Shown one piece after another: positions 18,938 through 20,853 of a stretch of 37,068 nt of DNA; within the stretch, counting starts at the first letter, position 1; each line of letters starts with the position of its first letter. Source of the stretch: Flavobacteriales bacterium (GTDB taxonomy: Bacteria; Bacteroidota; Bacteroidia; Flavobacteriales; UBA1820); assembly GCA_028709885.1 (NCBI GenBank), contig JAQUTH010000003.1, positions 1-37,068 on the forward strand, read 5' to 3'. Under the pieces are notes generated by a model. The model saw nothing but the letters and a program-made list of their open reading frames with translations, had not been told where the DNA came from and ran no database searches. The position numbers and the translations under genes were made by a program.

Positions 18938-18945
18938 TATATTTG
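18938..18945 (+). promoter_or_regulatory. -7 element TATATTTG for a candidate unannotated transcript
   Basis: Exact TAnnTTTG in the recN-dnaB intergenic region; no good -33. Confidence 0.5.
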
Positions 18946-18979
18946 CATCGTTGGTGTACAAGATACAGCATTTGATAAA

Positions 18980-19036
18980 ATGACGAAAACGCGTCCACCA
19001 GCAGTCCTAACAACTAACATTAATTTTGTTTTTTGA
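18980..19036 (+). CDS. Candidate 18-aa leader/small peptide MTKTRPPAVLTTNINFVF
   Basis: ATG 18980 to TGA 19034-19036, inside the candidate RNA; start codon lies in the 3' arm of a hairpin. Confidence 0.3.
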   Translation: MTKTRPPAVLTTNINFVF

Positions 19037-19143
19037 TTTTTTATACAACACACACAACTAGATTTTAGAGTTACTATGAATTAAAAGAGCGAGTTCTACT
19101 TCTTATTTCCTTCGTTTCGTTCTACTCGCATCTTTTGAAAGTT

Positions 19144-19178
19144 AAAAGCCACTTGAATGTATTTCAAGTGGCTTTTTA
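19144..19178 (+). terminator. Intrinsic terminator in the recN-dnaB intergenic region, not attributable to any annotated CDS
   Basis: aaaagccacttgaa-tgtat-ttcaagtggctttttaa, 14-bp perfect stem plus T tract. Confidence 0.85.
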
Positions 19179-19218
19179 ATTGTTGATAAGATGTTAATAA
19201 CTAAAAAGCAAATCGTTA

Positions 19219-19250
19219 TTGGAACAAAAGACATATTTTGCATACATTTG
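19219..19250 (+). promoter_or_regulatory. Bacteroidetes-type promoter directly abutting the dnaB start codon
   Basis: TTG (19219-19221), 21-nt spacer, TACATTTG (19243-19250); ATG at 19255. Confidence 0.65.
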
Positions 19251-19254
19251 AAGT

Positions 19255-20853
19255 ATGGAAAATGCAAAACAAAATAACACAAAAAAATACTCATCTATTA
19301 CTCCTATGGTACCTTTGGAGGCAGGAAAACTGCCACCACAGGCATTGGAATTTGAGCAGGCAGTCTTAGGCGCATTGATGATAGACAGCCGTTCGGTAGA
19401 TACGGTTATCAACATTATACAGGAAAACACCAACGTTTTTTACCGTCCTGAACACCGTGAAATATACACCTCTATAATCAATCTGTACCGAGATACCAAG
19501 CCAATAGATATGCTCACAGTGAGCAATGACCTTAGAAAACGTGGAGTACTGGATAAAGTAGGCGGCGATATGTATTTGGTGCAGTTAACCCAAAAAGTTA
19601 CTTCCGCTGCAAACGTGGAACATCACGCACGTGTGGTTCAGCAAAAGTATTTCCAGCGCTCTCTGATAGAACTCTCCAGCGATATAATATCCAAGTCCTA
19701 TGACGATTCCACAGACGTTTTTGACCTTTTGGATGAAGCAGAGGGTGGTATTTTTGAGATAACTAATTCCAACATCAAAAAGTCCTATGAAAAAGCCAAC
19801 ATATTAGTTCCTCAGGCTATAAAGCGCATTCAGGAACAGGCTAAAAAAGAAGGTGGCATCAGTGGTCTGCCTTCTGGTTTCAAGGACGTTGATGCTGTTA
19901 CAGCTGGTTGGCAAAACAGTGACCTTATAGTCATAGCCGCTCGTCCAGGTATGGGTAAAACGGCATTTGTGGTATCTATGGCGCGAAATATGGCGGTGAA
20001 TAGAAACATACCAGTGGCTCTTTTCTCATTGGAGATGTCATCGGTGCAGCTGATAACCCGTATGATAAGTGCCGAAACAGGTATTCCGTCCAATAAACTT
20101 CGCGAGGGTAGTCTTGATAAAAACGAATGGGATGTTCTTTTGGAAAAAACGAGTGATTTGGCAAAATCACCTATGTATATAGATGAAACGCCAGGTCTTT
20201 CTCTTTTGGATTTTAGAAGTAAGGCGCGTCGTCTGGTGGCTCAGGGTGTCAAAATCATTTTCATAGACTATTTGCAGCTGATGACGGTGAAAAACTCTGG
20301 CGATAAAAGTGGTAACCGTGAACAAGAAATATCACTTATTTCCCGTACATTGAAGGCTGTGGCAAAGGATTTGAACATACCTATCATAGCTCTTTCTCAG
20401 CTTTCCCGTGGAGTGGAGGCTCAGACAGGACAAAAACGCCCTATGCTTCAACATCTTCGTGAATCTGGTGCCATAGAGCAGGATGCTGATATTGTGGGCT
20501 TTATATATCGTCCTGAATATTACGACCTTACCGAATGGGATGATGAGAAACACACTCCATGTGAAGGACAAGCAGAGTTTATCATAGCTAAGCACCGTAA
20601 CGGAGACCTCAAAAACATAAAACTACGTTTTGAAGGGTATAAAGCTCTTTTCTCAGACCTTGATACGGCAGCCAGCGACATAGCTAATAGCCTTCCTTCT
20701 GGGACAAATTCGCCTTTTGCAGTGGTGGATAGTTTTGAATCCCGAATAAATAACCCAGCCACTGCTTCATCTTTTAATCCACAAGTATTGCCAGCCGATG
20801 CTTTTCAAACAATTCAGAATCAGCATGATGATAACGATGAAGTATCTTTCTAA
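19255..20853 (+). CDS. dnaB: Replicative DNA helicase
   Basis: 532 aa; LPPQALEFEQAVLGALMID, VIAARPGMGKTAFVVSMARN, FSLEMSSVQLITRM, IFIDYLQLM, LSQLSRGVE, LRESGAIEQDADIVGFIYRPEYY. Confidence 0.97.
   Translation: MENAKQNNTKKYSSITPMVPLEAGKLPPQALEFEQAVLGALMIDSRSVDTVINIIQENTNVFYRPEHREIYTSIINLYRDTKPIDMLTVSNDLRKRGVLDKVGGDMYLVQLTQKVTSAANVEHHARVVQQKYFQRSLIELSSDIISKSYDDSTDVFDLLDEAEGGIFEITNSNIKKSYEKANILVPQAIKRIQEQAKKEGGISGLPSGFKDVDAVTAGWQNSDLIVIAARPGMGKTAFVVSMARNMAVNRNIPVALFSLEMSSVQLITRMISAETGIPSNKLREGSLDKNEWDVLLEKTSDLAKSPMYIDETPGLSLLDFRSKARRLVAQGVKIIFIDYLQLMTVKNSGDKSGNREQEISLISRTLKAVAKDLNIPIIALSQLSRGVEAQTGQKRPMLQHLRESGAIEQDADIVGFIYRPEYYDLTEWDDEKHTPCEGQAEFIIAKHRNGDLKNIKLRFEGYKALFSDLDTAASDIANSLPSGTNSPFAVVDSFESRINNPATASSFNPQVLPADAFQTIQNQHDDNDEVSF

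Follow-up and report, generated by a model that had tools for sequence, protein, structure and literature searches.

A predicted genus-restricted small RNA gene upstream of dnaB in Flavobacteriales and its probable small RNA partner

Introduction

Little is known about the regulatory RNAs of Bacteroidota. In the window analysed here, the whole 37,068-nt stretch of contig JAQUTH010000003.1 (assembly GCA_028709885.1, a Flavobacteriales bacterium), the interval between the leftward recN and dnaB (19255-20853, + strand) raises the question of whether it holds a gene of its own and, if so, on what the product would act. The first-pass annotation, made from the letters alone, had placed there either a ~230-nt small RNA (sRNA) or an orphan attenuator, and had looked to Bacteroidales for relatives. 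In this study, the genome of the window (G000) was compared with three other species of its genus (G001, G002 and G003). The locus, designated RNA1, is present in all four species examined, which are relatives of Candidatus Merdimorpha and belong to Flavobacteriales, not Bacteroidales; the three relatives named by pattern search are Candidatus Merdimorpha stercoravium and two ruminant-gut Flavobacteriales MAGs.

Structure of the RNA1 gene

RNA1 is predicted to be an sRNA gene of ~233 nt (18949-19181, + strand), its ends being placed from the promoter and the terminator. The -7 box TATATTTG (18938-18945, +) is of the Bacteroidota TAnnTTTG type, the promoter consensus of the phylum (PMC9723704). 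A generic sigma-70 scan did not single this promoter out (6 sites against 4.3 expected). It is singled out by conservation, since TATATTTGC is kept in all four species. At the other end lies an intrinsic terminator of 14 bp (19144-19176, +), in a terminator scan that expects about 0.6 terminator-like sites in shuffled sequence. The region 18949-19181 folds at -51.3 kcal/mol, compared with -36.4 +/- 3.5 kcal/mol for 200 shuffled sequences (z -4.2), and none of the shuffles was as good.

Between promoter and terminator, all on the + strand, follow a 5' domain (18950-19002) with an invariant GUUGGUGUAC, a variable hairpin and a CACC arm; block 1, the invariant GTCCTAACAACTAACA (19004-19019); an invariant U-rich block, TTTGTTTTTTGATTTT (19025-19040); the conserved block ACACACAACT (19050-19059); and the block AGTTACTATG (19069-19078), invariant in all four species. 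Hairpin 2 (19082-19138) comes next, with the arms AAAAGAGCGAGT (19083-19094) and ACTCGCATCTTTT (19124-19136) around an invariant, pyrimidine-rich loop, TATTTCCTTCGTTTCGT (19104-19120). The -7 box, the 5' stem, hairpin 2 and the terminator had all been located correctly from the letters alone, and not all of them are equally well kept. The 5' stem, GTTGGTG (18950-18956) with CACCAGC (18996-19002), is present in the window; its predicted local pairing probability ranges from 0.10 to 0.96 and that of long-range pairing from 0.01 to 0.76, depending on the species. In G003 the local stem is weak, and pairing of GUUGGUGU with ACACACAAC, the predicted alternative partner at 19050-19058, is preferred. 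The enclosed CATTT-GATA-AAATG hairpin likewise exists where it had been described, and it falls in the variable part and is unconserved.

Conservation within the genus

The order of elements is alike in the four species and runs from TATATTTGC through GUUGGUGUAC, the variable hairpin, GUCCUAACAACUAACA, the U-rich block and ACACAACU or a close variant to AGUUACUAUG, hairpin 2 with the loop UAUUUCCUUCGUUUCGU and the terminator. The single-stranded blocks and the hairpin-2 loop are invariant, and the stems change in a compensating manner. Hairpin 2 forms 12-17 pairs in each species despite differing stem letters, its core reading GAGCGAGU in G000, GUCU.AGGGUUA in G001, GUCU..GAGUUA in G002 and GGGCG.CAU in G003. 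The terminator stems are almost wholly different among the species, while the pairing and the T-run are retained in all. The covariation that the first-pass annotation had proposed to look for was thus found in hairpin 2 and the terminator, as counted by hand over four sequences with no formal R-scape statistic; the 5' stem displays no such compensating changes. In G003 the T-run after the terminator is confined to the + strand, which fixes the direction of RNA1.

Outside the genus, no RNA1 was found with model R1 in samples of 298 genomes from the order and 396 from the phylum, where scores reached at most 28 bits against 146-165 bits for members; this model has an automatic structure in which hairpin 2 is poorly represented, and it is mainly a sequence model. 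In the window, no match to an Rfam family attained the gathering score, and relaxed matches within the interval were at chance level. A viral collection gave a single exact match to the hairpin-2 loop, inside a phage gene. RNA1 is a previously unnamed RNA and belongs to no described family among those tested.

With a promoter and an intrinsic terminator of its own, both on one strand and conserved, RNA1 is very probably a real sRNA gene. The interval is best explained as a noncoding RNA gene of ~230 nt that is independent and restricted to the genus; it would be transcribed from its own sigma-A promoter and end at its own terminator.

The probable partner RNA2 and the further loci RNA3

Complements of three invariant RNA1 segments, namely the loop, the AGUUACUAUG block and the GUCCUAACAACUAACA block, were sought in the four genomes. 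Beyond RNA1 itself, the complement of the 16-nt GUCCUAACAACUAACA occurs at 3, 3, 3 and 1 sites, whereas reversing the pattern gives 1, 0, 0 and 0. Nine of the ten sites are situated in intergenic, sRNA-like loci with terminators, seven of them copies of a family designated RNA2 and two belonging to another, RNA3 (in G001 and G002); the tenth is coding. The complement of AGUUACUAUG, in the same genomes, matched almost only coding sequence and nothing sRNA-like. The hairpin-2 loop has no perfect complement elsewhere in the four genomes, and the near matches checked were mostly coding or not common to several species. One near match to UAUUUCCUUCGUUUCGU, with two mismatches, is found immediately before a start codon on contig C56 of G000.

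RNA2 is a predicted family of GU-rich sRNAs of ~90-130 nt, with a TAnnTTTG box, a terminator and the invariant core AGUAGUAGUUUCAUAGUU(G/A)UAG...UAGGUUAGUUUUUAGGACUUG. Two paralogues are found per genome (one was seen in the incomplete G003), and the sites in G000 are at C56:13962-13977 and C69:7897-7912, both on the - strand. A deoC-like gene follows one type of copy, and the other type faces a DUF456-like gene. RNA2 has no Rfam match, and the viral collection yielded matches to its 5' core without the remainder of the RNA. RNA3 comprises sRNA-like loci with terminators on contigs C83 of G001 and C36 of G002. A wider complement search revealed a two-copy RNA3-like locus in G000 (C88:8435-8453 and C108:61-79), which has a terminator of its own (AAAGACCUAAGAACUGACC); the two copies are near contig ends. 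The sequence of the RNA3 loci, those of G000 included, is (C/A)AAGACCUAA(A/G)AACU(A/G)AC and is also complementary to RNA2.

Block 1 of RNA1 is complementary to GGTTAGTTTTTAGGAC of RNA2, and within it the single-stranded GUCCUAACAACUAAC(A) matches RNA2 GGUUAGUUUUUAGGAC. The computed duplex has 15 bp (8 + 7) around one mismatch at about -18.9 kcal/mol and is the same in all species and copies; at most 1 in 1000 shuffles was as good. For RNA3 and RNA2, 14-18 bp were computed, and RNA3 of G000 differs from that of G001 mainly by A-to-G changes, which keep U-G pairs with RNA2. Since neither side of the RNA1-RNA2 duplex varies, the two RNAs show no covariation with each other, and the pairing is supported by the match itself, by its repetition in RNA3 and by its placement in sRNA-like loci. 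The predicted folds leave block 1 and the seed of RNA2 unpaired only in part (0.3-0.8). A second colinear pairing, of ACUAUGA with RNA2 UCAUAGU, did not rise above chance (12-31% of shuffles as good). Taken together, RNA1 carries in all four species a conserved, extended complementarity to another RNA that is itself a predicted sRNA, and it probably pairs with RNA2.

Possible roles of the RNA1-RNA2 pair

As a part of RNA1 is near-perfectly complementary to RNA2, RNA1 probably works by catching RNA2. In the mechanism proposed here, RNA1 would carry the binding site of RNA2 and titrate it, while RNA2 would be the member that binds mRNAs. We hold with modest confidence the whole reading, according to which RNA1 is an independent sRNA gene that would pair with RNA2 via GUCCUAACAACUAAC and act most likely as its antisense antagonist, or sponge; the sponge role by itself is assigned tentatively. 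We infer from sequence the transcription of RNA1, its duplex with RNA2 in the cell, the direction of control, the targets of RNA2 and those of the hairpin-2 loop of RNA1.

On the target side, UUUCAUAG of RNA2 could cover AUG-AAA starts: it is complementary to CUAUGAAA, and sites of this kind occur at starts in the sampled sequence. In G002 the matches of RNA2 to starts below -12 kcal/mol exceed those of shuffles, and coding controls are as high or higher. Because start regions show no enrichment relative to coding controls, repression of AUG-AAA starts by RNA2 is suggestive only, and is drawn by analogy with FopS. According to the FopS report (PMC11697453), FopS and GibS are sRNAs of Bacteroides thetaiotaomicron described together with RbpB, FopS binds susC mRNAs at their start regions, and the classical RNA chaperones have no homologues in Bacteroides or its relatives. 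A motif search for RRM proteins in about 1 Mb of sequence sampled from G002 and G000 found none. A wider circuit may be imagined, in which RNA2 would bind AUG-AAA starts, many of them of exported proteins, RNA1 and RNA3 would set the activity of RNA2, and a replication-linked locus would tune envelope protein synthesis with no known RNA chaperone; as a whole it is speculative and rather improbable.

The direction of control may also be the reverse. RNA1 would then regulate mRNAs in trans, using the hairpin-2 loop together with the GUCCUAACAACUAAC seed, and RNA2, with its two copies, would be a decoy or target that titrates RNA1 and RNA3. The exposed, invariant 17-nt loop is typical of an mRNA-binding loop; RNA1 and RNA3 have the seed in common, as do sRNAs with common targets, and two copies per genome are what a titrating RNA might have. 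However, mRNA starts in the sampled sequence show no unusual complementarity to the RNA1 loop or block 1 when compared with shuffles, and the near-perfect partners of block 1 consist only of the RNA2 copies and one coding match. We regard this reversal as unlikely, though it keeps some weight.

Less probable still is that RNA1 is a protein-binding or structural RNA, for which the 15-bp match would be incidental or the relic of an old, functionless inverted duplication. In favour of this reading, invariance to the same degree is seen in several further RNA1 segments for which no RNA partner could be found. Against it, the site or its complement recurs in three separate classes of sRNA-like loci, whereas chance 16-mer matches should be mostly coding, as they are for the control block.

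Relation of RNA1 to dnaB and to 6S RNA

RNA1 lies directly upstream of dnaB in all four species. That recN points away had been noticed in the window and is correct for G000, the only genome in which this divergence was seen; in G002 the nearest upstream gene found encodes a DegT-type aminotransferase. The upstream gene thus varies, and the stable linkage is to dnaB. This constancy speaks for a cis-acting leader or attenuator governing read-through into dnaB. Nevertheless, dnaB does have its own promoter after the terminator, as the first-pass annotation had stated: a -7 box of the TAnnTTTG type, TACATTTG (19243-19250, +), lies outside RNA1 and 4 nt before the ATG at 19255, so that dnaB is not a gene without another promoter. 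The box stands four or five bases before the ATG in G000, G001 and G002. In addition, the RNA1 terminator is strong in all four species, the predicted folds contain no antiterminator pairing, and no comparable RNA precedes dnaB in those other Flavobacteriales that were inspected.

The sORF that had been described as sequestered in the transcript starts at ATG 18980 in G000 (MTKTRPPAVLTTNINFVF and stop), and it is not conserved among relatives. Neither the start nor the upstream frame is kept across the four species, and the aligned change from NIN to NNT is nonsynonymous, so RNA1 was rejected as a small-ORF mRNA. With the sORF unconserved and dnaB served by its own promoter, RNA1 appears to be an independent sRNA gene rather than an attenuator. 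Of the two forms first suggested for the interval, the sRNA with promoter and dedicated terminator was thus borne out by the comparison of four species, and the dnaB attenuator has become very unlikely.

The spacing of the dnaB promoter deserves a remark of its own. The -7 box abuts the start codon (window 19243-19257) in several other families too, and this direct contact suggests a leaderless or near-leaderless dnaB mRNA. Just before the promoter, at 19181-19189, a DnaA-box-like TGTTGATAA occurs in three of the four species, and similar boxes are located upstream of dnaB in some other families.

A divergent 6S RNA or other housekeeping RNA, which the poor scores of the Rfam 6S-type models RF01685 and RF01693 in the genus might seem to allow, can be dismissed, because RNA1 matches neither model nor any other Rfam family at gathering score, has no closing stem and no promoter-like bubble, and elsewhere, between zapA and rny, each of the four species has a 6S-type RNA whose closing stem is long. 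Both models miss this zapA-rny RNA of Flavobacteriales in the genus. In several genomes of other families, RF01693 (Bacteroidales-1) and RF01685 (6S-Flavo) match the same loci, all below gathering score, so that the two may be one RNA.

Comparison with known systems

Sponges of sRNAs, or anti-sRNAs, are an emerging class (PMC7366714). RNA1 resembles them as an independent RNA with long, conserved complementarity to another sRNA, sponges being either independent or processed. Most known sRNA sponges come from Hfq-containing bacteria. In contrast to those, RNA1 stands alone as a gene and belongs to a Flavobacteriales lineage; its titrating activity is proposed from the complementarity.

By presumed mode of action RNA1 is closest to sponges, and by lineage to the Rfp sRNAs and the FopS system. 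Like Rfp sRNAs of Flavobacterium psychrophilum, for instance Rfp18, it is independent, strongly structured and preceded by a TAnnTTTG promoter (PMC9723704); the median length of the Rfp set is 176 nt (PMC9723704). Unlike them, RNA1 is without a relative among the 298 genomes of the order, as judged by model search and not by direct comparison with Rfp sequences. RNA2 in turn recalls FopS as a multicopy family of small RNAs with canonical promoters, and its UUUCAUAG might bind translation starts as FopS does. The two are set apart on the basis of their descriptions, FopS having 14 paralogues of ~65-70 nt and RNA2 two copies of ~90-130 nt, and the consulted portions of the FopS account mention no antisense RNA to it (PMC11697453). 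The 6S RNAs (RF01685, RF01693) are stand-alone, structured and of similar length to RNA1, and differ from it in fold and locus.

The case of RNA1 illustrates that Rfam can miss sRNA genes restricted to a genus. With another sRNA family as its best partner, RNA1 offers a concrete RNA-RNA circuit that is recoverable from sequence alone and can be tested, in gut bacteria known from metagenome assemblies.
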